The position numbers were made by a program, and so were the translations under genes. This document shows positions 38,587 to 64,000 of a DNA stretch of 64,000 nucleotides, piece by piece. The notes under the pieces are model-generated. The model worked only from the letters and a program-made list of their open reading frames with translations. It did no database searches and was not told the origin of the DNA. The DNA comes from Apostichopus japonicus (lineage: Eukaryota > Echinodermata > Holothuroidea > Aspidochirotida > Stichopodidae): the NCBI RefSeq assembly GCF_037975245.1, contig NC_092568.1, forward strand, positions 2,294,001 to 2,358,000. The letters are read 5' to 3'. Numbering within the stretch: the stretch's first letter is position 1; each line of letters opens with the position of its first letter.

Positions 38587-41500
38587 ATGATGGAGTATAT
38601 CGTTTGGTGTAAGAATGTTCTGGTCCTCACCTTGCTGGCATCTTTGGCAGGTAAGTTCTCATTTCCAATTTTTAATTCAGATCTGGAAGGTCACTTGATG
38701 TTAATCGAATTAGATTCGATAGTTAAATGCCCGGTTAGTACTAATGCCACTTAAAGATCGACACTTACTGAAAAGGGTGTAAAGCCACGGTTATTTTGAT
38801 GGGGAGGAGGGTTCATGACGAAGTGGCGACAGCTCTTTTACTTGATGTGCTCCCCCCCCCCCCCACCCTTCCCTCCTCACCGGCATTCAGATTAAATATC
38901 ATAATAGACAAACCCCAGGATGTTTTTCATTCGACAATAGGCCACTTTACTAAATTTGCCCCAATGAAGTTTCCCCTGATCTCATAAGGTAGCAAATCGA
39001 CGCTACAGATGGAAAGAGTTATTTCTTCTAAGATCGACGTTTATGTTTGGCATGCTTGTGTAAAAACAGAGGGAGCCACTTCGGGTTCCGGTCACAACTA
39101 CCGTTTACCACTGGGTCCCTGTTTTTGTAAGTATAATATGAAAAAGAGAATGCACTACTCTTTATCCCACATTTTCGCCTGCCCCATTAAAGTCTCCTGG
39201 GCCCATGTCATTGCTGATATCGGACCCGGGCTCTAGCCTCAACTGACCGCCCATACTTTTTTTCGCCAGACCTGTGTAAAAGTAAGATCTCCTAATGTAT
39301 TCCATTTTAACATTTATTCATACAGCGCATTCATGGATACCCATGACCAGCTCATACCCTCCCTCGGCCACCTTTATCATGTTGGTATTATGAATGCCCT
39401 TATTCCGCTGATGAGTTACCGGTGTAGGGGATGTACAGCCATTTTATTGTCACTAACGACTAGACCTTCGCGTGTTTTGAGTCCTTTAAAAGTATGCGTG
39501 TTTAATGATTCATGATCACTGATGGCCCCCGATTTAAATTTGACACCAACCCTTGCTAGGGGTTATTTCAAACTGATATCTACATCATGTTCCTTTTCTT
39601 CTAATCAGAAAGAGCTCTTTTGATGTTATCATAACTATTTAAGTTTCTATATTTTTTACAGATTCCCAGTGTCCTAATGACAGGGGTCCTCTAACAGTAT
39701 GGCTCGGTACGTTTAAGCCCTTCATGTCCTGAAAACTGTCAGTGACATATCTATGCAAGAGATTGTTCATGCCTAAAAGCTCTATGGTTAGGTGATCTAT
39801 AGTTGTGCATAACCTGTGTATGAAAGGACCATACTAGTTATTCACTTTAACAAAATGATTTTCATATAACCCCACACGTGAATATATCTCCCCTAACCGC
39901 AAAGGTTTACGCAAGGGGCAGTAATTAGAAATGTGACTTTTTTTAGGGGGCCGGAAGAGAAAAAGTTACCTCAAAACTTTCCGACGAATGGACCCCCTGT
40001 GTATTCCGTACCACGAATTCCAGTATTTTATTGTTTTTCAACAAAGGAGACTGTTTAATTACATTTTCTTCTTACTTTTCAACAGCGCGGTACATTTCTT
40101 AATATCAGGATTATTTAATTTGTTAACAAAAAGGCACTTTAAATAACAAATACCGTATTTACAATAATTTAAAGGGTACATCTATTACGAATAAGGGAAC
40201 TTATTACTTCTGAAAGTGGCACTTTTGAGGTTTTTTACATACCTTTTGGAGGTGGATTGGGGAGGGCAGATGCCCTGTGCATCGCCTGGTATTCAATATT
40301 GCACTGATTATGTCATGTAGCAGTAACTAACAGAATGTGTAGTTGGGGATGGGGAAACGGGGGGGGGGGGGGCGAGTGGTGTGTGGTAGAGGGTTCAAGA
40401 AACAGGGTGACGCCACCACGTAGTGCTAGTGTTCACATGTATTGATTTGAATGTTGACGTAATCATTTCTGGTTATACCTTTTAGCCGATGCTACTAACT
40501 GTCAAGCGGACGCCAAGCACTGTGAGAGATTTGGAATGGAGTTTGTGTGCTCAGAGGAAATAATTAATCCCCACCCTAACGCGACTTGTCAGGAAGGTGT
40601 TAAAGCCTTGTGTTCATACCCACCAATCCCTAGCCCTTTGGTGGAAACCCCAGCTTCAACCTTTAAGACCCTAGCGTACAATGTATGGGAGCTTCGATAC
40701 CTCTATTACCAGATTGGACAACGGGAGAGGACATGCCGCATTATCCCAGAGGTCCTGCGCCGCCATCCCGACCTTGATGCGATAATATTCAACGAGGCCT
40801 TCATGGGTGGATGTATTGGTGGTTTTAATCTTTCATATTCCGGTGAAAAACTGACCTTTCGGAACGTCCTGAAGGAATATGGCTTCTCATACATTACCGC
40901 TACGATAGGTAACTCACCCACTCTCAGAAAATTCGAAAACGGAGGTATCTTCATTGCATCTAAGTGGCCCATACTTGAAGAAGATAATGTCATATACGAA
41001 GCCACACAGCCTCTCACCGCTGATGACCTCAGTCAAAAAGGAGCGTCTTACGCCAAGATACTCAAAACCGTCGATTCCGTATCCCGTGTGTATCACGTGC
41101 TTGGAACTCATCTGCAGGCGACTGATAACATCGGCTCCGATAACGTCCGACGAAATCAAGCTCGAGAAATGCACGAGCTGATGTTATCGAAGAATATACC
41201 CCCTCACGAGCCAGTCATCTACGGCGGCGACCTGAACGCCGACAGGTTATCGGAACTCGGGGCTGATATCTTTGAAATTCTAGACGCTAGCATGCCAGAG
41301 ATAGTAGGGGAACAACAGTACACCAAAGACAAATCTATTAACGACATATATGACGGAGGGAGTAGCCAAAAATGGATAGATTACGTATTGTATAGCAACG
41401 CCCATCTACAGCCGAATTCAGCTACCACACAAGTCGTCATCCCGAAGTCTGACCAACCCTTTGGTGTTTGTCTCGATGAATTTCGAGTTTGGCCAAGACC

Positions 41501-43855
41501 ACTTTATTCGGATAATTCCAGATGCCGAACAGTAAAAAATATAACCGATTTGGCAGACCATTTTGCTGCTATGGGAAGTTTTGCGTATCCTGAAGATGTT
41601 GAAATAGTTACTACACTACCCCCTTCTAAAGTACCAACTCAGAGCCCTGCTCCACCTACCACTATCAATCCAGAAGGTTTGTGTTACGTGTTATCACGTG
41701 ACAGGAGAGACTCACGGTCACTTGTATTTTCTTCACATTTTAAATTCGTACAAGGTGTTTGTAAACGAGCGATAAATTTTAATTATCAGGTCTTTCATTG
41801 CATTGCACTATATCATTGAGTTTAATGAGGTCGGTAAAAATGTCCAGGGAGGTGGTGTTACAGAAGAGACAAGGAGCAAGTTTTAAATATAAACCAGGCA
41901 TTCAGTCAGAGTTCAACCAAGTTTACTTCGGTGGGGGAGGTCGGGGGAGTGAGGGGACCACATTTTCCCCCTGATATGTCCATTATTGTACTTGAAGAAG
42001 GGGCACAGATGTATTGCTATTTGTTATCATTTTAAGGCCCGGATAAGAGTATTTTTCATGCTTTCCCTTGGATCCATGCTTATGTTGTTGGCTTGAAAAG
42101 TAAGTCCGGTTACTTTCGGGCGACACGGCCTCTTTTTTCTTTTGTTTTGCAATGTTATTGTGTCAATTTCTCTTTGTATTTTATTTCAGATCAATGCCCA
42201 GTAAGATTCACCGATCTTTCAGTGTGGGTTGGTAAGTGCATGCACCATCATTTGTCATGATTTTATGTATTACAATAATGATGCCAGGCAGTTTGAAACT
42301 TTCAACATGGAAGGGGGTCGTCTGTACAGAGAGGACTGATCTCACACAATTTCTTCACGTCCTTGAAAAACTTTCCAACGAATAAATTGTCATTAATTAC
42401 TTCATCCTGTAAAAGATAAGGGCCGGAGGTCAGGGGTTAATATTGCTGACTGTATTTGCATTTCTAACATTTTAACCTAAACTTACAATATTAAATTATG
42501 GCATCATTAGTTCTATCAGTCAACTCATTGAAATCGAAACGAATTAAAACTTATGACGTACTTTCTCGTTATATATATATATATGTTTTCCTTGCTTTCC
42601 TTACTTTTATATTTTAGATGACGCTCCTAATTGTCATGCAAACGAGTCGTACTGTAGTTACTTCGGACTGAATTATATCTGCAAGGAAAACTTTCAAGAT
42701 AACTCCGCCAATGCAACGTGTACCTCGGGTACTCGAGTTAGATGCGGTTACCCGCCGTCAACGATCGAACTGGTCTCAACACCTGTCACTACCTTAAAAG
42801 TGTTATCTTACAATATATGGGAGTTAGGCTATTTTTACTATCAGAACGGCCAACGGGAGAGAACTTGTCGCACTATACCCGAGGTACTCTCTATGCAACC
42901 CGATCTAGATGTCATTGTGTTCCAAGAGGTGTTTATGGGAGGATGCTTCTCCCCTCTTGCCTCTTTAAATAGATTGACTCTCAGAGAAATTTTGACCGAA
43001 TACGGTTTCCCTTACTTCACGGGTACTGTTGGCATCCCACGTTCGAATCCCGTAAAGCTCGAAAACGGCGGTACTTTCATTGCTTCAAAATGGCCGATTC
43101 TAGAGGAGAGCCAATTGGTTTTCAGAGATGGAGATCGTCTGAGTATTGACGTTTTGATGGCAAAGGGTGTCATGTACGCAAAGATTGAAAAAACTATCGA
43201 GGACGTATCCAAGATGTATCACGTGTTTGGTACTCACTTCCAGTCTGGAAATTACCACATCCAAGATACCATACGTATCATGCAAGCAGTGGAGATGTAT
43301 GACTTCCATAACAGTTTCAACATTCCACCAGAAGAGCCTGTCATTTACGCCGGTGATCTGAATGCTAACCGAATCGACAAACCTCAGCACGCCGCTGATG
43401 TCATTGCTGCTCTTAGGTCCACCATGCCGCGGATAGTAGGGGATTCGGAATACACATTCGATGCTGGAACGAATGATGTATTCTGGGATATCATCTCAGT
43501 CAGGTCATGGTTGGATTACGTCCTATTTAGCAACGAACATGAACAACCAGTGAGTTCAACCATTGAGGTTGTTCGTCCAAAGGCAGAAGCTCCGATGGAG
43601 GTTTGTCTGATCGCGCCGTTAGCTCGTGCGCCTGTGTATGCAGATTCGAAGAGATGCGCTAGAAGTAGGGTGATCACGAATCTGGCTGACCATTATGCCG
43701 TACTGGGTGTGCTAGACTATGATCAGTCAAAGAGAACAACAACTGCGACGGTGGAAATTCCTGCAAGTACCCAAGCGGGGACAGGTGGCAATTTGGTCGC
43801 TTCAATATATCTACATATGATACCAGTATTATGCTTTTGCTTAATTTTGATATAG
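38587..43855 (+). CDS. Secreted sphingomyelinase C-like protein, two catalytic domains, probable GPI anchor (gene 1)
   Basis: Exons: 38587-38650 (signal peptide, hydrophobic NVLVLTLLASLA), 39662-39706 (mini-exon 1), 40486-41676 (domain 1), 42190-42231 (mini-exon 2), 42618-43855 (domain 2 and stop). All introns are phase 1. The product is 859 residues. Both domains belong to the endonuclease/exonuclease/phosphatase superfamily and look closest to bacterial-type sphingomyelinase C, which splits sphingomyelin into ceramide and phosphocholine. Motifs kept are YN, (N/Q)E, GTH, GDLN and ADH. A Pro/Thr-rich linker joins the domains. The C-terminus has a Thr-rich stretch, a GTGG turn and a final hydrophobic segment (LHMIPVLCFCLILI), the pattern of a GPI-anchor signal, suggesting display on the outer cell surface. 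The substrate is inferred from family resemblance only. Confidence 0.88.
39662..41676 (+). CDS. Gene 1, mini-exon plus catalytic domain 1
   Basis: Mini-exon 39,662-39,706 (45 nt, tag CPNDRGPLTVWL) is followed by the 1,191-nt domain exon 40,486-41,676. The domain opens with a Cys-rich segment (CQADAKHCERF..FVC), then AYNVWELRYLYYQ, IIFNEAFMGGC, ENGGIFIASKWPI, LGTHLQA, YGGDLNA, WIDYVLYS and LADHFAAMG. All expected active-site positions are present. It is most like the B-type domains of gene 2. The exon ends with a Pro/Thr-rich linker. The track of codons after 41,676 stays open to 41,819 but is intronic by the GAAG|GTTTGT donor, whose phase matches the next mini-exon. Confidence 0.85.
42190..43855 (+). 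CDS. Gene 1, mini-exon plus catalytic domain 2 with GPI-type tail
   Basis: Mini-exon 42,190-42,231 (tag CPVRFTDLSVWV) precedes the terminal exon 42,618-43,855. Motifs: SYNIWELGYFYYQ, IVFQEVFMGGC (Gln replaces the usual Asn before the metal-binding Glu), ENGGTFIASKWPI, FGTHFQS (Phe replaces Leu), YAGDLNAN, WLDYVLFS and LADHYAVLG. The catalytic Glu, His and Asp/Asn residues are kept. It is most like the A-type domains of gene 2. The exon continues into a Thr-rich stalk, a hydrophobic tail and TAG. Confidence 0.85.
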
Positions 43856-45988: not shown

Positions 45989-48699
45989 CAGGCGCGTATC
46001 CAGGATTTTCTAACCCGGGGGGCGCGAATTACTATCTAAGCGGAGCGCCACCATCAGTTGGCGCGGAGCGTACAAGAAAATTTCTGGTTTTGATAACCCC
46101 CAGATCACCGGAAATGGCACTTCTCGGGCTTGAAAATGACCAACCAGATGTACACTTTTGCCTGAGAACCAAGTATTTCCCAAAAGTTTTTTTCCATCCA
46201 TAACCTTTTTGAAGATTGTGATCAGTCACACATCATGTTCGACCTCATTGCATGTCCTATGGATCATTGCCTTTGTAGGTGATTCTACGTCACGGCCCAC
46301 AATATCCGAAAGCCCCACTTTTCAAGGTTTTAAGGCTTAAGCCCATTATTTTTTTGAGAATTTGAAAATTCACACTTTTCGTGAATAAAAATCACCTCAA
46401 AACATACCCATAATGTTGCACAAAATTCAATCTATGGACAACTAATATAGAAAAACCTCCTTGAACCCCTAATAGACAGGTCAAAATTGCACGAGTAGAG
46501 GAAAGTATGATGAAGAATGTTGGTGAGGAAATTTTCGAAAATTCAGACACAGTTAATTTATTGGTGTATAGAAATATTAAAACCTGTTATAATGGCTATT
46601 ACAAAACTTGGTTGAAGGCAAGGGCGGCGGAAGCACTTTGAATCTGGGGGGGCACCAACGTGGAAGGGCACGTTGCAGAAATTCGATTGGACTGATGCAG
46701 CCTGATATTAAGTACCCTTTATAACTCTTATTGTATTATCTTATTTGCGTATACACATCACTGCATCAACCCCCCCCCCCCCTCAAGGAAACAATGCATA
46801 CTAGCACTGCAGTATCTAATGTGCAAATTGGGAAACAAGGAAAAAGACAAAATGATGTGAAATCATTATAAAGTCCCAGTCCCTGCACACGCGATCGATA
46901 CATGCATGAAAGCAAATGAAATATGTCAATAAACTGAAAGAAAAGTAATTTTCTATGTGTTTTTCAATGGTTGAACTGATATTATTATGATCATTATTAT
47001 TGTAACGACTTTCCCAATAATTCTAACCAATTTGGAAGGGTTATAACACGGCAAATGATTGTATGCTATTGGCATGCGATGTAGTAACCAACGCATGCCT
47101 ACATGATATGCACATTAACATGTTGAACGCGCGCGAAGCGCGCGAAAAACTTTGGTAATATTTTTCGGGCAAGTCGTTACAGCCCCCCAGATCAAATTGG
47201 GCTCCTACGCCTGTGGTAGTAAACATATAAAACTTCCCGAAATATTTCATTCGACGTGGGTTTCGCCTTGTAAACTCTTTTTTTATTTAGAAATTTTTAT
47301 GTAGAAAAAGGGCACATTTTTAATCTGAGGAAAAGTGGGGGGCACGTGCCCCCTGTGCCCCCCCCGGTTCCGCCGCCCTTGGTTGAAGGAAATGAAAAAT
47401 AGCAGATATTTCCGATATCAGGTATATCGAAACCGAACACTACATACATAGGCGTAGGTCCCGTAGAAACCGGGGGCTGCAGCCCCCCCCCCCCCCCCAC
47501 CAATTTTTTTCCCATTTTTTCGGGCATCTACTGAAAGAAAAATAAATAGCAATGAATAGCTTAAAAATGATCTCCTTGGTAATTAAAATAAAGTTCTAAG
47601 CTTGGCCGACATTACTACTGTAAAAGAGAGTTTTGACATAAATGGATCTGTATGCTTTTTCTCCATCTACATAAGACATTTGGTTGTTTACATTAGCATC
47701 CGGCGGTATACTGTGCAACTTTCAGGGACCGTAAGGTACACGATGCCATGCGATGTAATAACCGATGCTTGCTTATATGATATTGACATGCGAAAAATTT
47801 TTGCTTTTTCTTCGGGCAAGTCGTTACAGCCCCAAATCCAATTGGGCTCCTACGCCTTTGACTACACACATAGACAGTTTTTGAGGCTGTTCATCGTGGA
47901 ACATGCATTTCAATGCTCACTGATATGATGTTATATCTGCACTTTGCTTTACAAATTCGAACAGGCGTGTAGCGAGTAATTGCCAAGGGAGGGGCGAAGC
48001 CTGTAGGCAAACTATCTAAGCGAAGCGCCACCATGAGTTGGCGCTAAGCGTACAAGAAAAATTTTGGCCGAAAATACCTCCCAGATCGCTGGAAATGACA
48101 CTTCCCAGGCCTTGTAAGTTGCATCTAAGCATTGTCTATTTTGAAATTACTAGCGATGTCATAAGGAAAATTTGCTCAAGGGGGGGGGGGGTGGCGGTCG
48201 CCCCCTTCCCGAATGCGTCATGTTCCCCGACGACTCGGTCGAGTTCAAGACCAGCCACAGTTGGTTCCATATAGCACAATTGTACAATTGTTTAAGGCGT
48301 CCATACACACACGCGTTATGATAGACCATATATAGTATTTATATAGATACATTAGTGAGAGAGGGGAAAAACGTCAAAACTGGAGTTGTCGGTGTAAGGG
48401 GTAGGGTGAGGCGCACACCACCTCCGAAATCCTTGATCTGTCACTGGCTACCCTGTGTATATAATAGGGATCAGAGCTTTAACTATGACTGTTCCTCTTT
48501 CTCTTCCCGAGGTCTTGGCTATCTTCTACTCCCTCCTTTTCTCCCTTTTCTCTCTTTTTTCTTTTTCTTTCCCTTCCTTTCTCTCCTCCTTTTCTTTTTT
48601 TCCCCCTCCTTTTCCCTTTTTTCTTCTCTTTTTTTTTCTCTCCTCTTTTCCTTACCCGGGGGCGCGCGCCCCAACGCCCCCCCCCTGGATACGCGCCTG
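45989..48699. mobile_element. 5-bp-TSD DNA element, copy 2 (2,711 bp), inverted relative to copy 1
   Basis: CAGGCGCGTATCCAGG opens and CCTGGATACGCGCCTG closes, a perfect 16-bp inverted pair. TTCAA lies directly outside both (45,984-45,988 and 48,700-48,704). It carries the reverse complement of nearly all of 14,788-16,742. The extra length is mostly the nested element at 46,619-47,381. The subterminal module is at 46,031-46,082, 42 bp from the left end. A second module copy at 48,010-48,062 follows an internal terminus-like CAGGCGTGTAGCGAG at 47,961, so the family is itself a composite. Confidence 0.9.
46619..47381. mobile_element. hAT-like MITE (763 bp) with perfect 8-bp TSD GTTGAAGG, nested in copy 2
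   Basis: CAAGGGCGGCGGAAGC opens and GTTCCGCCGCCCTTG closes. GTTGAAGG flanks both sides (46,611-46,618 and 47,382-47,389). Copy 1 of the host element has the uninterrupted site (CCTTCAAC at about 16,127-16,134), an exact empty-site comparison. It is the same family as 5,588-6,236. Confidence 0.95.
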
Positions 48700-49268: not shown

Positions 49269-52200
49269 ATGGCTGAACTTTTGAAGTGGTTCGCCATTTT
49301 CTTCATTTGTGGGATTTCGCATACATATGCAGGTTTGATATATAATTAAATTCAATTTAAAAATTATGTTAAATTTTTCTTTCTTGTACTCTTTCTTCAG
49401 TTCGCATGGTACCCATACTACGGTAAAAAAAATCGAACTGACATCGTCTCTGCTTCAGCGGATTTGGTCGTGTAGTGTAATGCGGTAAAGTGTTTGTCAA
49501 ATTCGCAAATATGATTTTACAGTAAACTTATTTTCTGGGAAAGAGATAGGGTTGTTATTCATTTGTTGCAATTAGACCTACATTGAGTTGGCCTATATAT
49601 GTATTCTCAAAACGATGTTCTTATATAGGTTATCAGAATACTGTGATGTACAGTTGGGTGACATTACATTAACGTTCCAATAGCCTATGTGTTAATTCTC
49701 ACGAAACACTGTGTACTCCCATTCGGCATTGATTCGAGAGTCACATGTTTTCATACTATACTGTACAACAATCGAATAATTTCAAGCAAACTAAACACTT
49801 ACAATTCAAAGATACATTGGCGTTGCTGCTATAATTGCAACCAAAGCACTGGTGTGCCAGTCTGCGCAAAATATGATACCTTTCCTTGTTTCCTTCTCTA
49901 ATAATCGAGAAAGTGAATTAAGTCAAATATCTTCCTACGATAAAAATACTTTTAAAGGTATTAATCTCAAAAAGAATAAAACGTGGAGTATCAATAAACG
50001 CTTCCCTAGATACTCAAACCATTTCTCTCTTCTTCCTTTACCCATTTTATGAAACGAAAATATTTAATCCTGGTAATCTGGTACTAATGTCATGAGAGAC
50101 ATTTGGTCCCCGGAGCGATCATCATTTGTGCATACTGACAACGTATTACACATCTATGAATTGTAGTTTCACTTTTGTCGGGTTGTCATGAATTATGCAT
50201 TTGTAAGAGCCGTGTTTTTTTTTAAGTGTTACACCCACTTTATACCACAACATCGCTTATTACAAGAAGATGTACCTCACCCAGTAGTCCATGTTGTCTT
50301 CGAGGGGTGGGGCCAGGGGAAAGAATGATCTGCAAATAATTTTGATCTGTAATTTCCGTTGGCAAATGTAGAATTTTTCAGTATCAAATGAATGTGAATG
50401 TACCGCACTATTACTGTCTCGACGCATTAGTAGGCCTTACTCCAGTGCCACCCCTCTAACATAACTGGGTGGTTCACCTCACCCCCTCCCCCCCCCCGCT
50501 TCCAACCCGGTACCGCTGTAAGCTCGTCCTCTATATTCCTACTGAAATACCTCGTGAACTGCATGAATCCATACTGTAAACAGAGACATCTGTGCGCTTT
50601 TGTACGAAGTATACATTGACGACTTACGTACAGCTATCAAACGTCACACCACCATTAATATCGTTTGACCAAACAGCCAAGGGAGCAGTAAAAGTTGCAT
50701 GCCTTCTGCCTTTATTAGGTTTTACCAATGTGGTGCCTTCTGCGTAACGTAAATACGTGCGTAAAATGTCAAATGTAAATAGTGTTTTTCCTTTCATTAA
50801 TCCCGTAGAAAACTGCACGTATGACGGAGAAGCCCCTTTCGTTTGGATTGGTAAGTTTAGAGGCTATTATTGGACAAATGGACAAACATGGAAATGATTA
50901 CACACATGCGTATATATTGCCCGTTTGTGGACTGTATCTTTCACATTATTCACTTCTGTGGCAATTTTGTGACTGATTCTTTGGGTGGAAATGAGTAACT
51001 ATATGATGCTGCATCAAAAGTTAGGCTGAAGTTTCCTAAACAGTGATCGGATTTATTCAGGGGTTACAAAGCAGTTTACAGTGTATATTTTCAAGATTAA
51101 AATATATATGGCCGATATCGGCACATGTTGTTGCCTTTTGCGAGGAACAACAGGAGGGGAGTGTAAGATCCTGTTGTAGTGGTATACCTTAATTCTTACC
51201 GATTTTCACAGTCCATCCGTCCCTTCCGAATACGAACGGAAGTTAGAAACCTACGATATTCGTTTTTTGTTCTTCTACAGACGACGCTCCAGATTGCTTT
51301 GCTGATGAAAGCTACTGTCAACAGTTTGGACTCGAGTATGTATGTCAAGAGCCTTCCCAAAATGCATCATGTGCCAATGGGACTCGTGTACTCTGTTCGT
51401 TTCCTACACCTTCGACCGCCCTACAAGACACACCTTCAACGATGTTGAAAGTAATAGCATATAATGTGTGGGAGTTGCGCTATCTCTACTGGCAGTCTGG
51501 TCAACGGGAGAGAACCTGCCGAGTAGTTCCCGAGATCCTCCGATTGCATCCCGATGTAGACGTCATCGTGTTCAATGAGGCTTTCATGGGCGGTTGTTTT
51601 GCATCAGGACTGGATGATCCTTCGCTAACGCTTCGTGATATCCTCGAGTTTTATGGTTTCACAGAATACACGATGACTGTTGGAAACGTACCGACGACAG
51701 CCAAACCGGAAAATGGAGGTGTTTTTATTGCATCGAAATGGCCGATAACACGTTCAAGACGTCTCGTGTACGAGTACTCAGAGCGTACCACAGCAGATAG
51801 TTTGTCACAAAAAGGGGCGGTGTACGCACGCGTGGAGAAAAGCGTTGGAGGTCAAGCAAAAACGTATCACATATTCGGCACGCACCTTCAAGCTTTTGAA
51901 AGGCGTAATAGTAGTTTAGTAAGAGTCCTTCAAGCACAAGAGATGTACAATTTTAAAGAATCCCAAAATATTCCCAGTGGCGAAGGGGTCATCTACGCTG
52001 GGGATTTAAATGCCGATCAAATCAACAGACCAGAACATGCAGAGGAAGTCATCGAAGAGCTGAATGCAATTGTTCCTCCAATCGTCGGAGAATATCAATC
52101 ATCTTATAACAGAGGAATAAATGACATCTTCTTAGATATACCCTCAGACGGTAGTTGGCTTGACTACGCCCTCTACAGCACGGAACACCTTATACCGGCC

Positions 52201-54587
52201 AGGTCTTCTTTACAAGTGGTTAGACCAAGAAGTCAACGACCATTCCGTGTCTGCCTTAATGCCATTCCGCCGGGTCATTCGTATCCCGAATCTTCGAGAT
52301 GCCTAAGAAGTAAAGAAATAACCGACTTGGCGGATCACTTTGCAGTGATGGGAACGTTTGATTTCGGAGACGGAATGTGGACCACAACCCAGGCCCGTGA
52401 GTTGAATTATATTATTTTGTAAAATACTATGATAATCACTTATGGTATAATATTTAGTGAAATGAGATGATACATAAGTCCTTAGCTGGAATCCCTAAAT
52501 TTTGTCTCACATGACAAATGTATCCAACTTTAACACGGTAGTTTGATTTTCATGAAACGGTCTCTTGAATTTGTATAGCCTAAACTATGTCGGTATAGCA
52601 TATTCATAATCACATACACGCATTCTTGAATTCGTCGTTTTAGCATAAACGAGAAATTAGTTTCTTCCGCAGATCCTGAATATAAATTACCGATGTAAAG
52701 CGTTGGTGACTTTCAAGTAATAATTCATTCAAAAGCAAATGTAACGAGATTTGTTATGTATTAAGTATATAAGTTTGCCTAGCATTATGTAAAATGTACC
52801 CTATTTTATGAAACACATTCTAGCAATTAGGAAAACAGTGTGCAAAGTTTGGCAGAAGACATGTCACTGTAATCTTCTTAAAGTTTTCGCAATTAAAACT
52901 TTTCTCTTTGTATTATGTTTCTACAGCCGCCTGCTATGTACCTTCTGGTGTACCATCTGTGTGGCTTGGTAAATCCATTTTCCTTGATTTTTATTTTAGG
53001 ATCATCTTATTTGTGCCAACACTATAATATTTATTTACAAACTATGTGGCGAATACATTGTCTTGTGATTTTCGAAATCAAAAATGAGTTGGAAGGATGC
53101 TGTACATGCGTTTTAAATTGCATTATGTAGAAGAAAAAAGTATCTTACTATGCGAACATTTTACCTACCCCTTGTCTAAAGAGGTACTTACCATCCACCT
53201 TTTGTTTTTCTTCTCGAAACATCCAATAATTTTCATTTCAGCGAAATGACAAATTTAAGTTCAACTTGCATGTGATTCGTAACAGCACATTGATGAAATA
53301 ATATTATCAACCATAGTGCTTCATTTTCCTTCTTTCCAAAGATGATGCACCCGATTGCATCGCAGATGCAGACCATTGTGCCAGATTTGGATTAGATTTC
53401 GTTTGCAGTGAGACTTTCGTCGATCCTGATCCTCCATTTAATAACTCGTGTGTAAATGGAACCAAAGCCTTGTGTTCTTTTCCACCGATACCCAAATCTC
53501 TCCAACTCACTCCGGCGACCCATTTCAAAGTCCTTGCCTATAATATCTGGGAATTGAGGTATTTATACTATGAGACAGGGCAAAGGGAAAGAACTTGTCG
53601 AATTATTCCAGAAGTATTCAGACTCCATCCTGATCTTGATGCGATTATTTTTAACGAAGTATGGATGGGTGGATGCATCGCTGGATGGAACTTTACCATC
53701 AATGGAGATCTGATGATGTACCGGGAGATACTGACGAATTATGGATTCAAGTACTTTACAGCTACCCTTGGAAATCCGCCATCTCTGAGAACCTTCGAGA
53801 ATGGAGGGGTTTTCATTGCCTCCAAATGGCCAATTTTAGAAGAAAAGCAAACCATTTACAACTCCACGGTCACGTTGTCCGCTGACACTTTGTCACAGAA
53901 AGGTGCAATGTACGCAAAGATTCAAAAGACGGTTGATAACATACGTCGTGTTTATCACGTGTTCGGGACACACCTGCAAGCTACTGGTCGATTAAACGCA
54001 GATAATGTTAGACGTGATCAGGCTCGGCAAATGCACGAGTTGATGTTAAGCCTAAACTTACCGAGTACGGAACCCGTCATCTATGGTGGTGATCTCAACG
54101 CTCGTTTAGGTTCACGACTAGCGGACGACATATTTGAAATCTTGGATGCATCCCAACCACAAAAAGTTGGAGAACTAGATTACACGAGCGATAAAACCAT
54201 TAATGATTTGTTCGCTGGAGATGGGCGAACGGGTCAGAGTTGGATCGATTACACCTTGTATAGTAACGCATATTTACTACCAACAAATGCAACGACACAG
54301 GTCGTGAGACCTCGAGCTCAGGAGCCATTCGAAGCATGCATTGATGACGTCAAAGTGTCGCCCGGCCCTGTCTATCCAGAGAGGAGGTACTGTCGCAAAC
54401 CAAAGAATGTAACGGACTTGGCGGATCATTTTGCTGTTCTCGGGACATTTGATTACATTTACGGTAAAGTTTTATTTTTAGATATATAAGTTAGCAGGAT
54501 TCGAAGCCACTTGCGCGTTACATACAGGACATAAACGCTCGTTTTGGTGTATCGTCAGTTATAATAATTTTAATAATAATAATAATT

Positions 54588-54620
<33 letters not shown>

Positions 54621-54650
54621 TTAATATTAATAATGATAATGATAATGATG

Positions 54651-54690
<40 letters not shown>

Positions 54691-54692
54691 TG

Positions 54693-54778
<86 letters not shown>

Positions 54779-57700
54779 TATAATAATAATAATAACAATA
54801 ATGACGACGACGACGATGATGATGATAATCAGGCAGTTATTTTTAGTTTTCAGCATGAAATACCAATTTCCTTGTAAGTTTGATCTACCAATAGCTGTTA
54901 TTACTTTTGAATGTTTGAAATATCAGTTAACTATTTATTATTATTTAACAAGTGTGTCTTCATACTGTTTAAACAATTTTTTATTGCCATTGTTTCTTTC
55001 AGACAATTGTCCGGCAGAAAAGCCTGTTCTTTCTGTGTGGGTAGGTGAGTAACAGTATCGTTCGAAGAAACGTCCTAACCATGTAATCAATGTGATACGC
55101 TAGGTTGCTTATTACATGCAAGTGAAACTCCATACGGATATTAATGCGGCATGTTTCACATCCGAAAGAACTTGTAATATTACCATAGTACTACGATATA
55201 AAACTGCTGTCAATTTTTAAAGCTGATGAATGAAGCGTGTCTCTAGCAAAAGTAATTGAATGTGTCTTCTTGTTTTCAGACGACGCCGTCGGATGCATCG
55301 CAGATTCGTCTTACTGTGACATCTTCGGATTGGATTACATTTGTACTGCCGATATTGTTGATCCATCTCCTGTCAACCTCTGTAAGATTGGAAGAAAGGC
55401 CCTATGTGCCTTTCCACCGAGAACCACACCATTGTTTGATACTCCAGCGAATGAACTAAAGGTAGCTTCATATAATATATGGGATTTGAGATATCTCTAC
55501 TACGAATGCGGACAGCGGCAACGAACATGTCGTATGCTTCCTGAAGTATTTAAACAACAACCAGACCTTGACGTCATCATCTTCAACGAAGCTATGATGG
55601 GCGGATGTTTTGGTGGTTTTAACGTTTCGGATACCCGCTCCATTATGTCTTTTCGAGAAATCTTGAGGGAACAATACGGGTTTCGATATTCGACCAGAAC
55701 TATTGGGACACCGTACACCTTGCGGAAACCTGAAAATGGTGGTATTTTCATCAGTTCCAAGTGGCCAATCATTGAGGCAGATGCAAAGGCGTACGAAAAT
55801 TCAATTAGAACTTCTGCCGACAGCTTTTCTAATAAAGGAGTAGTTTACGCCAAAATAAGAAAATCAGATGGAAACATGTCACATATTTATCATATTTTCG
55901 GGACCCATCTGCAAGCTGGAGGGGGTCAAGAAGGGGATGTCGTACGTCAACAGCAGGCTGGAGAGATACACGAGTTCATGAAGCAAAAAAATATTCCTCT
56001 GAACGAAGCCGTCATGTATGTTGGGGACCTTAACTCTGGATGGTTTGAAGAAGATGGACCGATCATTCTTGGAATATTAGAAGCTACCCAACCGGAAGTC
56101 ATCAATATGAACTATACAACTGATCAAAGTATAAATGACTTAATCGATAAACCACATAAAACACCACGATGGATCGATTATGCAGTTTACAGCAGTGTTC
56201 ACCGCCAACCGATTAACGCCACCACAGAAGGATTTCGTCCCAGATCAGATGAATACTTTGAGCTCTGTATAAATGATGTCGCCATTGCAAACGGTCCAAT
56301 CTACCCTTGGTCTCAAAGATGTAAAAATTCCCGCAGTGCTACAGATTTATCGAATCACTACGCCGTTATGAGTAAGTTTGTCTTTGGACCGAAGAACGAG
56401 TTTCCAGGTAAGTGAAGAAATAACTATTCTTTATTGATGTGATTTCATTATATATTTCTAAACATTTAGACCCGTTAGCATTTTGTTTACATGCAGACTG
56501 TCTATTTCATCAATCGTTGTGAAAATGCATGCACTTGGCCACCTGGTAATGGTAGCATATGAATTAAAGGAATGTTCAAGAATATTTGACGTTATTGAGA
56601 AACGAATTGGATATTAAGGATTAATATATTATGAAGTAATTTTGAAGTTCACTCCAACAAGTAATATATCAACAATGCTTATTTGAGAAGGTGTGATATC
56701 TTTACAGCAAATGATGTTCATTGAACCAGGGGATGGCTGCTCATATACTTGATGTTTAATATATATTTGTTTATTGCAAGATATAACTGATGTTCTTTTT
56801 GACTAGCTGTGAGCGTGCTTTGTTCAGGAAGTGATTTAGACTAACGAAGTGGTAATATCGATGTTGATTCCCACGCACCCCTCATCACACCCATGATGTC
56901 CGTGCCCGTCCCATTTGTTTTTGCTGAAATTACCAGACTTTTACATAACTATTACTGATATGGGCCGAAACTACCGACCAAGTACGAATGTGTAAGAAAC
57001 AATGACATATGGGCTAGCTAACTACCGTGATTCAAACCACACAACCAATTAAAAGAAATATGCTCAAGACTATTGCAAAATGTGCATGGCCAACCCTCCC
57101 CCCCCCCCCCCCAGGTCCCAAATAGTTCTGTCTCATTTGCCTTTTCGTACGTATAGCGTGCGTTGTTGTAAAACTTAACTATATTTCTCTTAATTATCTA
57201 TCAGAAACCTGTAAATATGAAGGAGAAGCCCCTTATGTTTGGATTGGTAAGTGTTTTTTTTTAGAGAAGAATGTGAATTAATACGAAGCATCTAGTTTAA
57301 ACACAACTACAAAATATACACCCGCAAACACCCACGCTTGCATATATGTCGATTGTTTGTCACTATCTGTTTAATAAATTATTCTGTTTTGTTGCAAATA
57401 AGTAACTGATTGGGGGAAGCCCCTTATGTTTGGACTAGTAAGTGTTTCTTTTTCATAGAGGCATTTTGATTAATACGAAGCATATAGATTTATCACAACT
57501 ACAAAAACATACCCACAAACATACACGCGTGCATATATTTCGATTGTTTGTCACTGTCTTTTAAATGCATTTTTCTGTTTTGTTGCAAATAAGTAACTGT
57601 TTGGGACTGAATATTTGAAATAATGCTACAGCAAGATCAAGGTTGCAGTTCTTTATTATACAGAAAATTTATCAGTTTACGAATTATACTAGTTGTACTA

Positions 57701-60700
57701 ATTATAATATCGGTACAGAAATTAAGGCTATCAACAATACCTGAAAATATGGAAGGAAGAGCTTATTTAACAAACCGGCAACTCCTCGCCCCCCCCCCCC
57801 ATTATTGAAGATTATGATTACGAATCTCGTTGTGTTTCTCTCCCACGTGCAGACGACGCACCAGATTGCTTTGCTGATGAAAGTTACTGTCAACAGTTTG
57901 GACTCGAGTATGTATGTCAAGAGCCTTCCCAAAATGCATCATGTGCAAATGGGACTCGTGTACTCTGCTCGTTTCCTACACCTCCGACCGTCCTACAAGA
58001 CACACCTTCAACGATGTTGAAAGTAATAGCATATAATGTGTGGGAGTTGCGCTATCTCTACTGGCAGTCTGGTCAGCGGGAGAGAACCTGCCGAATAGTT
58101 CCCGAGATTCTCCGATTGCATCCCGATGTAGACGTCATCGTGTTCAACGAGGCTTTCATGGGAGGTTGTTTTGCATCAGGACTGGATGATCCTTCGCTAA
58201 CGCTTCGTGATATCCTCGAGTTTTATGGTTTCACAGCATACACGATGACTGTTGGAAACGTACCGACAACAGCCAAACCGGAAAATGGAGGTGTTTTTAT
58301 TGCATCGAAATGGCCGATAACACGTTCAAGACGTCATGTGTACGAGTACTCAGAGCGTACCACAGCAGATAGTTTATCACAAAAAGGGGCGGTGTACGCA
58401 CGCGTGGAGAAAAGCGTTGGAGTTGAAGCAAAAACGTATCACATATTCGGCACGCACCTTCAAGCTTTTGAAAGGCGGAATAGTAGTTTAGTGAGAGTAC
58501 TTCAAGCACAAGAGATGTACAATTTTAAAGAATCCCAAAATATTCCCAGTGGCGAAGCGGTCATCTACGCTGGGGATTTAAATGCCGATCAAATCAACAG
58601 ACCAGAACATACAGAAGAAGTCATCGGTGAGCTCAATGCAATTGTACCTCCAATCGTCGGAGAATATCAATCATCTTATAACAGAGGAATAAATGACATC
58701 TTCTTAGATATACCCTCAGACGGTAGTTGGCTTGACTACGCCCTCTACAGCACGGAACACCTTATACCGGCCAGGTCTTCTTTACAAGTGGTTAGACCAA
58801 GAAGTCAACGACCATTCCGTGTCTGCCTGAATGCCATTCCGCCGGGTCATTCGTATCCCGAATCTCCGCGATGCCTAAGAAGTAAAGAAATAACTGACTT
58901 GGCGGATCACTTTGCAGTGATGGGAACGTTTGATTTCGGAGACGGAATGTGGACCACAACCCAAGCCCGTGAGTTAAAGTATTTTTGCTGATATTTTGAT
59001 AATCAATTCTGAAATCGATTTTTTTACAAAAGCTAAAGCATTATTTACTAGATTGTAGGAAAGTATCTTCATTGTAACACAACGGGTCAAACACTGTCAA
59101 ATTAGAAGCACCATTTAGGCATAATTCCAATTTATGTCGAAAACTCTATAAGTCCTTTTCTAGTCATCTTCATTTTGAAAAGAAAATAATAAACCAGACT
59201 TAATCAGGCATAACAGTTCACATAGTTACTGGGCCGCAGTACTGATAAAAGGCGAACAGGAGACGATCATTGCTAAGTTTCACATATGTTGCCTTGTGAA
59301 ATTTGCAGTTTGAACTCAGACTCCGAATTAATATTGTATGTTAATATTTGGCTTTGATGTTTCCAGTCCGAGTTAAACGAATGACTGTGAAGGAGGGTAT
59401 TTACTCGTGTATTATTAGAGGTTTGTAAGTTTTGGGCAGCCCAACCTTCACCCGACATTATAATAAGCACCATCGACCATGTGGATTATAGTTATATTAT
59501 GACCATACTTAATATTGAAAGGTTAACTATGTACAGGGATGTGTGTATTTCAAATATACTAGCCAATCTATAACTAATATATCATATTTATAATAAAATC
59601 CAAAATTCAACAGAAACTATTGAGGCAGAAATGGAGAGTCGATAATTGATTCATGAATTGAGTGAAATAAAAATGATTAATCACTAATAATTAACAATAT
59701 CTATTGGTACTTTCTTTATATGCAGCCTCCTGTTATGTACCACCTGAAGTACCGTCGGTTTGGCTAGGTAAAGTATTTCTTTGTTGCGAAAAGTTCATAT
59801 ATAAATTGTTGCTCTGTAATTATCATTTGAATCATCATCGTTGGTTTGTTTTCCATACAATCATTAATTTACAAAAGAAACTAAAGATGTGTATCTCTGT
59901 CAAGACATGTAATGTGTGGGTTGGTGTATCCATTATATTTACAGTTTAACATGTATATTTTTCCATGTGACTCCTAACCTGGCCCCTTCCCAGTTTCATT
60001 GGCACCTCATCCACTCCACTCTTGTAGCTTATCATGATCTAATTTATGTTGGTCATTAAGCCATATATAAGATTACTTCGTTCGAATAAAATAAGCATGG
60101 AGCTGCTTCTTTGAAACAAAGTATTTTACATTTAGATTTCACGAAATATGTATACCTTCTCTTTCATTAATAAAGTCATAACAAACCAGAAAACCTAGTT
60201 TGGTTGTTTATTTGAAAATATACACTAATGAATGAAGGCAACGTGAACAACGTGGCACACAAAATCAAGGGAATGATCGAATCGACCAATCAACCGTATT
60301 CTAACGTTTCTAACTTTGTCATTTACCTACTTCTCGATGTAGTTTTCTATGTGTCTTTAATTTATCAACATTGAACATCATACTGAATTAACTTTTCCCG
60401 TCATTGTTTCCTTCTTTCCAAAGATGATGCACCCGATTGCATCGCAGATGCTGACCATTGTGCCAGATTTGGATTAGATTTCGTTTGCAGTGAGACTTTC
60501 GTCGATCCTGATCCTCCATTTAATAACTCGTGTGCAAATGGAACCAAAGCCTTGTGTTCTTTTCCACCGATACCCAAGTCTCTCCAACTCACTCCGGCGA
60601 CCCATTTCAAAGTCCTTGCCTATAATATCTGGGAATTGAGGTATTTATACTATGAGACAGGGCAACGGGAAAGAACATGTCGAATTATTCCAGAAGTATT

Positions 60701-61651
60701 CAGACTTCATCCTGATCTTGATGCGATCATTTTTAACGAAGTATGGATGGGTGGATGCATCGCTGGATGGAACTTTACCATCAATGGAGATCTGATGATG
60801 TACCGGGAGATACTGACGAATTATGGATTCAAGTACTTTACGGCTACCATTGGAAATCCGCCATCTCTGAGAACCTTCGAGAATGGAGGGGTTTTCATTG
60901 CCTCCAAATGGCCAATTTTAGAAGAAAAGCAAACCATTTACAACTCCACGGTCACGTTGTCCGCTGACACTTTGTCACAGAAAGGCGCAATGTACGCAAA
61001 GATTCAAAAGACGGTTGATAACATACGTCGTGTTTATCACGTGTTCGGGACACACCTGCAAGCTACTGGTCGATTAAACGCAGATAATGTTAGACGTGAT
61101 CAGGCTCGGCAAATGCACGAGTTGATGTTAAGCCTAAACTTACCGAGTACGGAACCCGTCATCTATGGTGGTGATCTCAACGCTCGTTTAGGTTCACGAC
61201 TAGCGGACGACATATTTGAAATCTTGGATGCATCCCAACCACAAAAAGTTGGAGAACTAGATTACACGAGCGATAAAACCATTAATGATTTGTTCGCTGG
61301 AGATGGAAGAACGAGTCAGAGTTGGATCGATTACACCTTGTATAGTAACGCATATTTACTACCAACAAATGCAACGACACAGGTCGTGAGACCTCGAGCT
61401 CAGGAGCCATTCGAAGCATGCATTGATGACGTCAAAGTGTCGCCCGGCCCTGTCTATCCAGAGAGGAGGTACTGTCGCAAACCAAAGAATGTAACGGACT
61501 TGGCGGATCATTTTGCTGTTCTCGGGACATTTGATTACATTTACGGTAAAGTTTTATTTTTAGATATATAAGTTAGCAGGATTCGAAGCCACTTGCGTGT
61601 TACATACAGGACATAAACGCTCGTTTTGGTGTATCGTCAGTTATAATTATT

Positions 61652-61682
<31 letters not shown>

Positions 61683-63291
61683 CAATAATGACGACGACGA
61701 TGATGATGATAATCAGGCAGTTATTTTTAGTTTTCAGCATGAAATACCAATTTCCTTGTAAGTTTGATCAACCAATAGCTATTATTACTTTTGAATGCTT
61801 GAAATATCAGTTAACTATTTATTATTATTTAACAAGTGTGTCTTCATACTGTTTACACAATTTTTTATTGCCATTGTTTCTTTCAGACAATTGTCCGACA
61901 GAAAAGCCTGTTCTTTCTGTGTGGGTAGGTGAGTAACAGTATCGTTCGAAGAAACGTCCTAACCATGTAATCAATGTGATACGCTAGGTTGCTTATTACA
62001 TGCAACTGAAACTCCATACGGATATTAATGCGGCATGTTTCACATCCGAAAGAACTTGTAATATTATCAAAGTACTACGATATAAAACTGCTCTCAATTT
62101 TTGAAGCTGATGAATGAAGCGTGTCTCTAGCAAAAGTAATTGAATGTGTCTTCTTGTTTTCAGACGACGCCGTCGGATGCATCGCAGATTCGTCTTACTG
62201 TGACATCTTCGGATTGGATTACATTTGTACTGCCGATATTGTTGATCCATCTCCTGTCAACCTCTGTAAGATTGGAAGAAAGGCCCTATGTGCCTTTCCA
62301 CCGAGAACCACACCATTGTTTGATACTCCAGCGAATGAACTAAAGGTAGCTTCATATAATATATGGGATTTGAGATATCTCTACTACGAATGCGGACAGC
62401 GGCAACGAACATGTCGTATGCTTCCTGAAGTATTTAAACAACAACCAGACCTTGACGTCATCATCTTCAACGAAGCTATGATGGGCGGATGTTTTGGTGG
62501 TTTTAACGTTTCGGATACCCGCTCCATTATGTCTTTTCGAGAAATCTTGAGGGAACAATACGGGTTTCGATATTCGACCAGAACTATTGGGACACCGTAC
62601 ACCTTGCGGAAACCTGAAAATGGTGGTATTTTCATCAGTTCCAAGTGGCCAATCATTGAGGCAGATGCAAAGGCGTACGAAAATTCAATTAGAAGTTCTG
62701 CCGACAGCTTTTCTAATAAAGGAGTAGTTTACGCCAAAATAAGAAAATCAGATGGAAACATGTCACATATTTATCATATTTTCGGGACCCATCTGCAAGC
62801 TGGAGGGGGTCAAGAAGGGGATGTCGTACGTCAACAGCAGGCTGGAGAAATACACGAGTTCATGAAGCAAAAAAATATTCCTCTGAACGAAGCCGTCATG
62901 TATGTTGGGGACCTTAACTCTGGATGGTTTGAAGAAGATGGACCGATCATTCTTGGAATATTAGAAGCTACTCAGCCGGAAGTCATCAATATGAACTATA
63001 CAACTGATCAAAGTATAAATGACTTAATCGATAAACCACATAAAACACCACGATGGATCGATTATGCAGTTTACAGCAGTGTTCACCGCCAACCGAATAA
63101 CGCCACCACAGAAGGATTCCGTCCCAGATCAGATGAATACTTTGAGCTCTGTATAAATGATGTCGCCATTGCAAACGGTCCGATCTATCCTTGGTCCCAA
63201 AGATGTAAAAATCCACGCAATGCTACAGATTTATCGAATCACTACGCCGTTATGAGTAAGTTTGTCTTTGGACCGAAGATCGAGTTTCCTG
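49269..63291 (+). CDS. Secreted multi-domain sphingomyelinase C-like protein, at least six catalytic domains (gene 2, incomplete at window end)
   Basis: Exon 1 (49,269-49,332, 64 nt, the same length as in gene 1) encodes a signal peptide (ELLKWFAIFFICGISHTYA). Six mini-exon plus domain-exon pairs follow, all with phase 1 junctions: A 50,809-50,850 + 51,281-52,396; B 52,927-52,968 + 53,342-54,463; C 55,003-55,044 + 55,280-56,407; A' 57,205-57,246 + 57,853-58,968; B' 59,726-59,767 + 60,424-61,545; C' 61,887-61,928 + 62,164-63,291. The frame is open throughout, about 2,349 residues, with no stop or new signal exon between domains; the last exon ends in a good donor. The family reaction is phosphodiester hydrolysis of sphingomyelin outside the cell; that role is inferred. 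The alternative is several shorter transcripts from the same array. RNA evidence would decide. Confidence 0.8.
50809..52396 (+). CDS. Gene 2, domain A
   Basis: Mini-exon tag CTYDGEAPFVWI, then a 372-residue domain exon. Within the domain: N-terminal Cys at 6, 13, 22, 31 and 39, probably disulfide-bonded; YN at 61-62; metal-binding Glu in FNE at 100; ENGGVFIASKWPI; His of GTH at 202; Asp and Asn of GDLN at 242 and 244; Asp-His at 352-353. All superfamily active-site residues are present, so it is probably active. The donor C|GTGAGT keeps phase 1. Confidence 0.85.
52927..54463 (+). CDS. Gene 2, domain B
   Basis: Mini-exon tag CYVPSGVPSVWL plus a 374-residue domain exon (53,342-54,463). Motifs: AYNIWELRYLYYE, IIFNEVWMGGC, ENGGVFIASKWPI, FGTHLQA, YGGDLNA, WIDYTLYS and LADHFAVLG, all with intact active-site residues. 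Several Asn-X-Ser/Thr sites (NNS, NFT, NST, NAT) suit a glycosylated secreted protein. Closest to gene 1 domain 1. Confidence 0.85.
54550..54805. repeat. (TAA)n microsatellite in the B-C intron
   Basis: About 240 bp of TAA/ATA units ending in a short GACGAC patch. The paralogous intron between B' and C' has only about 45 bp (61,645-61,690). That difference of about 200 bp accounts for the B-to-B' versus C-to-C' spacing difference (7,082 against 6,884). Long poly-Ile frames here are artefacts. Confidence 0.95.
55003..56407 (+). CDS. Gene 2, domain C (Asp-His motif changed to Asn-His)
   Basis: Mini-exon tag CPAEKPVLSVWV plus a 376-residue domain exon (55,280-56,407). It keeps SYNIWDLRYLYYE (Asp replaces the Glu of WE), IIFNEAMMGGC, ENGGIFISSKWPI, FGTHLQA and VGDLNS. 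The C-terminal motif reads LSNHYAVMS, so the Asp that normally precedes the catalytic His is Asn (about residue 359). The same change is in C'. The His itself and the metal-site Glu are kept. Activity may be lowered or altered. Confidence 0.85.
57205..58968 (+). CDS. Gene 2, domain A' (duplicate of A)
   Basis: Mini-exon tag CKYEGEAPYVWI plus a 372-residue domain exon (57,853-58,968). By eye it differs from A at about 11 positions, more than the other two pairs. All active-site motifs are intact. The intron between mini-exon and domain is longer than in A because of a 190-bp tandem duplication. Confidence 0.85.
57226..57605. repeat. 190-bp tandem duplication containing a dead copy of the A' mini-exon end
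   Basis: The end of the mini-exon and its intron (from GAAGCCCCTTATGTTTGG at 57,226) is repeated from 57,416. In the second copy the last codons read TGGACTA|GTAAGT instead of TGGATTG|GTAAGT, and the upstream acceptor and Cys codon are missing, so it cannot serve as the mini-exon. Confidence 0.85.
59726..61545 (+). CDS. Gene 2, domain B' (duplicate of B)
   Basis: Mini-exon tag CYVPPEVPSVWL plus a 374-residue domain exon (60,424-61,545). Only about three residues differ from B by eye. All motifs are intact. The identity extends into the flanking introns, including the acceptor region TTCCTTCTTTCCAAAG and the downstream intron. Confidence 0.85.
61645..61690. repeat. Short (TAA)n tract, counterpart of 54,550-54,805
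   Basis: The paralogous position in the B'-C' intron, much shorter than its partner. Confidence 0.9.
61887..63291 (+). CDS. Gene 2, domain C' (duplicate of C, Asn-His motif)
   Basis: Mini-exon tag CPTEKPVLSVWV plus a 376-residue domain exon (62,164-63,291). About five residues differ from C. It shares the LSNHYA change. The exon ends TTTCCTG|GTAAGT in phase 1, so the gene continues past this domain. The frame runs open to 63,362 only by reading into the intron. Confidence 0.85.
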
Positions 63292-64000
63292 GTAAGTGGA
63301 GAAATAACTATTCTTTATTGATGTCATTGCATTATACATTTCTAAACGTTTACACCCGTTAGCATTTGTGTACATGCAGACTGTCTGTTTCGTCAATCGT
63401 TGTGAAAATGCATGCACTTAGCTGCCTGGTAATGGTGGCATATGAAATAAAGGAATGTTCAAGAATATTTGACGTTATTGAGAAACGAATTGGATATTAA
63501 GGATTAATATATTATGAAGTAATTTTGAAGTTCACTTCACTAAGTAATAGATCAACAATGCTTATTTTAGAAGATGTGTTTCCTACACAGCCAATGATGT
63601 TCATTGATCCAGGGGATGGCTGCACATAAACTTGATGTTTAATAAATATTTGTTTATTTGTCAATATATATAACTGATGTTCTTTTTGATTAGCTTTGAA
63701 CGTGCTAAGTTCAGGAAGTGACTTAAACAAGCAGCCCCATGATGCCCGTGTCCGTCCCATTTTGTCTGCTGAAATAACCAGACTTTCACATAACTGTTAC
63801 TGATATGGGACGAGACTGCCGACCAAGTATACGAATGTGTAATAAACAGGGACATATGTTCTAGCTAACTACCATCATTCAATCACACAACCAATTAAAA
63901 AATACGCTCAAAACTATTGCAAAATGTGCATTGCCCACTCCCCCCCCCCCCCCTCCCACGTCAGGTCCCTAATAGTTCTGTCCCATTTGCCTTTTAGTAC
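63292..64000. other. Intron after domain C', truncated by the window end
   Basis: Homologous to 56,408-57,150. It contains a poly-C tract at about 63,938-63,952 and no exon. Confidence 0.8.

Follow-up and report, generated by a model that had tools for sequence, protein, structure and literature searches.

A row of sphingomyelinase C-like domains read as one gene in the sea cucumber Apostichopus japonicus

Can a single animal gene encode a whole row of complete sphingomyelinase domains? The question is raised by a stretch of 64,000 nucleotides from the genome of Apostichopus japonicus (contig C8, NC_092568.1, 2294001-2358000, + strand; hereafter the window), in which an open series of exons begins with a signal peptide at position 49269 and continues to the far end. 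A preliminary description, made from the letters alone, had read this series as a secreted chain of at least six sphingomyelinase (SMase) C-like domains in one open gene. Positions given here are those of the window, and window-extended coordinates continue the same numbering past its end.

An eleven-domain gene model

The gene, the second of four in its cluster, opens with exon 1 (49269..49332, + strand), which carries the start codon and the signal peptide (MAELLKWFAIFFICGISHTYA) and ends in phase 1. Six intact units follow in the window on the same strand, each pairing a 42-nt exon, encoding 14 residues with one Cys and a VW pattern, with a catalytic exon 1116-1128 nt long. The 42-nt exon at 50809..50850 (14 aa, one Cys, ...VWI) precedes catalytic exon A1 (51281..52396), and those at 52927..52968 and 55003..55044 precede B1 (53342..54463) and C1 (55280..56407). 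The next three units consist of A2 (57853..58968, after the small exon 57205..57246), B2 (60424..61545, after 59726..59767) and C2 (62164..63291, after 61887..61928). A1, B1, A2 and B2 each retain 7/7 of the catalytic residues checked below, and C1 and C2 have Asn at the Asp295 position. The junctions of all these exons show AG/GT sites and are 100% phase 1, and the spliced frame is open; the spliced reading thus bears out the earlier claim of one signal exon and six complete domains with no stop and consistent phase. The order A-B-C-A-B-C denotes a three-domain set present twice: the members of a set are 45-51% identical to one another and the copies of a type 96-98% (by type in tblastn, A/A' 97%, B/B' 99% and C/C' 98%).

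A tblastn search with three domains over 124 kb, from 20 kb upstream to 40 kb downstream of the window, located five further domains in the same direction past the window (A3, B3, C3, D1 and E1), to which the donor at 63292 behind C2 leads. In full, the model spans 49269-74249 (window-extended) and comprises 23 exons, 22 phase-1 introns and 4419 aa; with the sequence past the window added, the ‘at least six’ domains become 11, namely A-B-C three times and then D-E. The chain has Thr/Ser/Pro-rich linkers after C3 and after D1, contains 114 Cys and 47 glycosylation sequons, and reaches its stop after a hydrophobic tail. Between copies of the same type dN/dS is 0.05-0.26 (nine comparisons), with A and B at 0.05-0.15 and C at 0.13-0.26. 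Because these values are low and because A1, B1 and C1 match an SMase profile, the array is not a product of chance.

A protein search of the whole 671.6-Mb assembly (35 contigs) with B1 scored 22 candidates and gave 15 matches, all of them on the same contig at 2334488-2403639 (~69 kb); this count rests on the single query B1, and more distant relatives could be missing from it. We read the 15 domains as four genes with 2 + 11 + 1 + 1 domains.

That the 11 units of the long gene are translated as a single protein from a single transcript is what we infer from its layout. The 21 introns after the first measure 235-797 bp, compared to gaps of 5.4 and 2.7 kb to genes 1 and 3, no stop or long spacer lies between the units, and E1 alone in the row ends with a stop and a hydrophobic tail. 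The competing explanation, that the row represents distinct genes of one to three domains each, or overlapping alternative transcripts, takes its appeal from the short versions that exist nearby, as genes 1, 3 and 4 have two, one and one domains, respectively. A simple scan for signal exons recovers the true ones of genes 1, 2 and 3 and finds no candidate in the 11,721 bp of gene 2 introns or in their reverse complement. This zero is weak evidence: at the rate that the scan gives in window positions 1-36000, three hits per strand, about one chance hit is expected in the introns, and its donor pattern was composed after the true exon 1 had been seen. With introns this short and a terminus at E1 only, we nevertheless regard separate genes as unlikely.

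Family, active site and catalysis

To which branch of the endonuclease/exonuclease/phosphatase superfamily do the domains belong? A1, B1 and C1 (371-375 aa) match the sphingomyelin phosphodiesterase profile TIGR03395 with E-values of 1.2e-27 to 9.6e-32, and the superfamily profile PF03372 (gathering threshold 24.5 bits) is exceeded by A1 (34.2) and B1 (27.6); when the same three were scanned, C1 had no PF03372 match. Among solved structures the closest relatives in both sequence and fold are bacterial SMases, based on sequence searches that used A1 or a profile built from the eight window domains and on a fold search with the model of B1 alone. The array domains are not closer to human nSMase2 (SMPD3, 5uvg) than to the bacterial enzymes: its match is far weaker, with an E-value of 7.1e-4 compared to 5e-39 for a bacterial sphingomyelinase.

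Several observations caution against equating the domains with the bacterial enzymes. Their TIGR03395 scores of 97.1 (A1), 100.7 (B1) and 110.5 bits (C1) lie far under the curated cut-off of 248.2 bits, and judged by these scores the array domains are related to the equivalog and not members of it. The B1 model has middling confidence (pLDDT 60.3, pTM 0.71), and its Foldseek overlays are loose, with TMq ≤ 0.56 and rmsd 5.6-8.0 over ranks 1-16. An alternative is another function within the superfamily, for instance that of sugar-zwitterion phosphodiesterases or nucleases; against it, bacterial sphingomyelinases are strongest in both sequence and fold, in a direct comparison that included no GlcNAc-PDase sequence, and we consider it rather unlikely. 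The evidence supports assignment to the bacterial-type sphingomyelinase C branch, with no other branch of the superfamily matching better. The SMase C-like identity proposed in the preliminary description therefore holds, and the comparison of one predicted domain structure with bacterial sphingomyelinase that it called for agrees, the best fold relatives of B1 being bacterial SMases, albeit loosely overlaid.

Seven residues were checked in the numbering of the Bacillus cereus enzyme (Bc-SMase): N16, E53, H151, D195, N197, D295 and H296, in columns placed by motif. D195, D126 and D295 likewise have roles in Bc-SMase. The accessible part of PMC9710629 names N16, E53, N197 and H296 as SMase residues, and H151 is named there by way of a cited title. 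The complete set (7/7) is present in 11 of the 15 cluster domains and in eight of the 11 in the long chain. Domain F of gene 3 departs at two positions, with Glu for H151 and Asn for D295, and judging by these it is probably inactive or altered.

The remaining evidence on the active site complicates a purely catalytic reading. C1, C2 and C3 all lack Asp295 and have Asn in its place. The edge metal site is substituted in 15/15 domains: E99 is kept in all 15 and F55 in nine (Trp in B, Met in C), and neither N57 nor D100 survives in any, with Gly replacing N57 and Asn, or Ser in one, replacing D100. The loop that takes the place of the membrane-binding hairpin (W284, F285) sits between two Cys and is modelled at low confidence in B1; it has no Trp or Phe in A, B and E, and contains one Trp in the C type and a Phe in D1. 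An edge metal site altered in this way, together with a loop that lacks Trp and Phe in three of the types, means that substrate and membrane binding may differ from those of the bacterial enzymes. The possible substrates extend beyond sphingomyelin, since ceramide phosphoethanolamine and aminoethylphosphonate lipids also occur in marine invertebrates.

The loss of Asp295 in the three C domains, the double change in gene 3 and the remodelled edge metal site are also what could be expected if the chain served first of all to bind lipids or phosphocholine multivalently at the surface, in immune recognition or adhesion, with catalysis secondary. The seven catalytic residues are, however, intact in eight of the 11 chain domains, and dN/dS is 0.05-0.15 among the A copies and among the B copies, so that this alternative appears improbable to us. 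Even the C domains need not be dead, because a natural enzyme, the SMase of Streptomyces griseocarneus, has Gly (G330) at the central position according to the accessible part of PMC9710629, a residue that would be the equivalent of D295.

Proposed anchorage and function, and precedents

How would such a chain be held and used? The last residues are hydrophobic in all four genes by hydropathy, and the hydrophobic C-terminus of the 11-domain protein may, on the same measure, be a signal for a glycosylphosphatidylinositol (GPI) anchor. The chain had been described as secreted, and of this the signal exon stands; free secretion seems less likely, the end of the model looking membrane-anchored by its hydropathy. 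The suggestion that the product might be cut into single enzymes finds no support, since the three furin-like motifs in the 4419 aa all lie within A domains and none occurs at a domain junction, furin-like sites alone having been looked for.

Taken together, we consider it moderately probable that the gene encodes one extracellular, membrane-anchored lipid phosphodiesterase of about 4419 aa with eleven heads. This explanation starts from the open gene structure, the domain family, the conservation of residues and the low dN/dS between copies, and extrapolates from these to the single transcript, the anchor, the tissue, the substrate, the duplication route and the advantage of linkage. The protein would consist of a signal peptide, eleven SMase C-type phosphodiesterase domains, linkers behind C3 and behind D1, and at its C-terminus a GPI-like signal, and it would reside on the outer face of the cell membrane, for example of the gut lining or of coelomocytes. 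Its A, B, D and E heads would act on sphingomyelin, or on related sphingophospholipids from marine animals and microbes, hydrolysing them through the metal-dependent two-histidine mechanism known from Bacillus cereus sphingomyelinase; the C heads may be weaker, specialised or given over to substrate binding. With many heads sharing a tether, activity could be concentrated locally and the enzyme kept on lipid surfaces. The array itself would have grown by duplication of exon units and unequal crossing-over, each unit being insertable because phase-1 introns flank it on both sides. In its fullest version the proposal is that eleven membrane-tethered heads, falling into five kinds and probably active in eight cases, arose by repeated insertion of a phase-1 exon unit and by unequal crossing-over, an architecture not described before, in which a lipid-cutting enzyme of the secreted bacterial type has become surface-bound in an animal; to this we assign a little less than an even chance.

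The bacterial neutral SMase C enzymes are secreted proteins. Those of Bacillus cereus (2ddr), Listeria ivanovii (SmcL, 1zwx), Streptomyces griseocarneus (7cne) and Staphylococcus aureus (beta-hemolysin, 3i41), the TIGR03395 group, share the fold of the array domains, and their Asn16, Glu53, His151, Asp195, Asn197, Asp295 and His296 recur in most of these. In contrast to the eleven units and hydrophobic end seen here, the solved bacterial enzymes are single-domain chains of 298-317 residues. The array units furthermore possess an extra Cys-rich N-terminal part, the bacterial match of A1 starting at residue 50-55 in what its exons encode, and differ in the edge metal site and the hairpin loop. 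The human neutral SMases nSMase2 (5uvg) and 8j2f are membrane-integrated or membrane-associated and have a single domain.

Several catalytic domains in one chain are also known from sucrase-isomaltase, lactase and carboxypeptidase D. The norcoclaurine synthase fusions of Papaveraceae carry two to four active domains per chain, and their linkage can raise efficiency in proportion to domain number (PMC5171800, as far as accessible). Insect group II and III chitinases likewise have tandem catalytic domains, and those of group II mix active and altered domains, some without a key residue (PMC5891080, in its accessible part). Judged from these portions, both share tandem catalytic domains with the array, yet they are unrelated enzymes with fewer domains. 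No multi-domain animal sphingomyelinase appeared in the titles and abstract openings among the matches listed from the open-licence literature. The domain is a known one, and as far as could be looked the eleven-unit, probably anchored chain is a new architecture; comparable predicted proteins may already stand unremarked in public echinoderm annotations.

If made as read, the protein would be an extreme example of catalytic domains repeated within one enzyme, and it would offer a natural test of linkage in a membrane-acting enzyme, for which the one- and two-domain sister genes nearby provide natural controls. It would also endow an animal with an outward-facing system for cutting sphingolipids, perhaps in digestion, defence or membrane turnover.

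Growth of the array and its surroundings

The three A-B-C sets preserve traces of how the array may have been assembled, and illustrate a route by which units flanked by phase-1 introns, together with unequal crossing-over, could enlarge one. Unit 2 resembles a chimera: its A-to-B introns match those of unit 3 and its B-to-C introns those of unit 1. In keeping with this, a B-C-A segment of ~7 kb is present twice (B1-C1-A2 and B2-C2-A3), and the similarity begins 17 bases upstream of exon B1 (unit 1 versus unit 2) and stops just past exon B2 (unit 2 versus unit 3). A single unequal crossover joining exon B of unit 3 to its counterpart in unit 1 would produce both the intron pattern of unit 2 and the doubled segment, which points to unequal crossing-over in exon B as the origin of unit 2 and makes exon B the likely crossover site.

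The same duplication could have a technical cause, namely two alleles assembled in tandem, so that B2-C2-A3 would be an artefact and the true gene would have eight domains. In the first seven 400-base windows the two segments differ by only 0.2-2.8%, and alleles of echinoderms can differ by several percent. The other nine windows show 1.2-12.5% mismatch, however, with four of them at 7.8-12.5% and indels of up to ~200 bases, and the edges of similarity flank exon B as unequal crossing-over predicts; we accordingly judge an artefact decidedly improbable. Units 1 and 3 are in any case distinct, since in unit 1 the A-sB and sB-B introns give no alignment to those of units 2 and 3 above shuffled controls (intron sA-A aligns weakly with both), and eight domains therefore stand even if the B-C-A repeat is an assembly error.

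Exons and introns of the sets have not diverged in step. Between units 1 and 3, fourfold-degenerate sites differ at 6/168 in A and 9/158 in B as against 22/136 in C (Fisher p 0.0002 and 0.004), and between units 2 and 3 at 7/155 in B and 24/135 in C (p 0.0004); the difference between A (11/164) and C (3/149) in units 1 and 2 is not significant (p 0.056). The similar A and B exons of units 1 and 3, set within introns that do not align, can be read as a sign of gene conversion largely confined to exons. Two smaller repeats lie within the gene. A 191-bp tandem duplication at 57225-57605 covers the small exon before A2, its second copy retaining only the exon end and resembling a decayed exon. The B-C intron contains a triplet repeat of the ATA type, with ~81 copies in unit 1 (54561-54802) and 16 in unit 2 (61643-61689).

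The sister genes place this growth in context. Gene 1 (38590..43855, + strand) is a separate two-domain gene with a hydrophobic tail and a stop, composed of a signal exon (38590-38650, with a further in-frame ATG at 38587), small exons at 39662-39706 and 42190-42231, and the domains D0 (40486-41676) and E0 (42618-43855); at 40486-43855 on the + strand, the two domains are additional to the six noted originally. Gene 3 spans 76946-80151 (window-extended) and consists of a signal exon, the single domain F (78857-80151), a tail and a stop; its domain was found at 78.9 kb, past the long array, by the same 124-kb search. Domain F is a natural candidate for a non-catalytic relative. Gene 4 (L015, 4543-5774) comprises one domain, G, and a tail, and a simple pattern identified no small exon upstream of it. 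A tree of all 15 domains has a branch (100/100) with A, E, F and G on one side and B, C and D on the other; E0 and E1 are paired (100/99), and D0, D1 and B are grouped (89/92), with long branches flagged for G, F, E0, E1, D1 and D0. By this tree the long gene closes with a D-E pair resembling that of gene 1, in front of which the A-B-C sets appear to have been added later.

Elsewhere in the genome, contig C35 (16,099 bp) is mitochondrial, its genes having been assigned by eye. All 11 AAA codons of its cox1 can be translated as Asn, several of them at positions generally taken as invariant Asn (for example in GGFG-N-WLIP), and the 23 ATA codons are taken as Ile. Both assignments set code table 9, that of echinoderms and flatworms, apart from the common invertebrate code, with which it shares AGA for Ser and TGA for Trp. 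The mitochondrial code in this way indicates an echinoderm, the gene order over the 10 kb read agrees with one, and of the echinoderms a sea cucumber is the most probable source. A PF03372 search of the genome showed no cluster member among the 150 of 1141 candidates that were scored. Those 150 contain many near-identical matches, mainly on contigs C11, C16 and C17 in open frames of up to ~1180 aa, which are probably endonuclease domains of retroelements. Within the window, inverted copies at 14788-16742 and 45989-48699, 91-94% identical over ~2 kb in all, are probably a mobile element, and short repeats akin to it recur throughout. An open frame at 23845-24228 with an F-box-like domain (E 1.1e-12) is part of an unrelated gene, and another at 3066-3578 matches the hAT transposase dimerisation domain with 21.1 bits, just below the cut-off of 21.4 bits. 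A minisatellite of ~25 copies of a 21-bp unit occupies 29664-30178.

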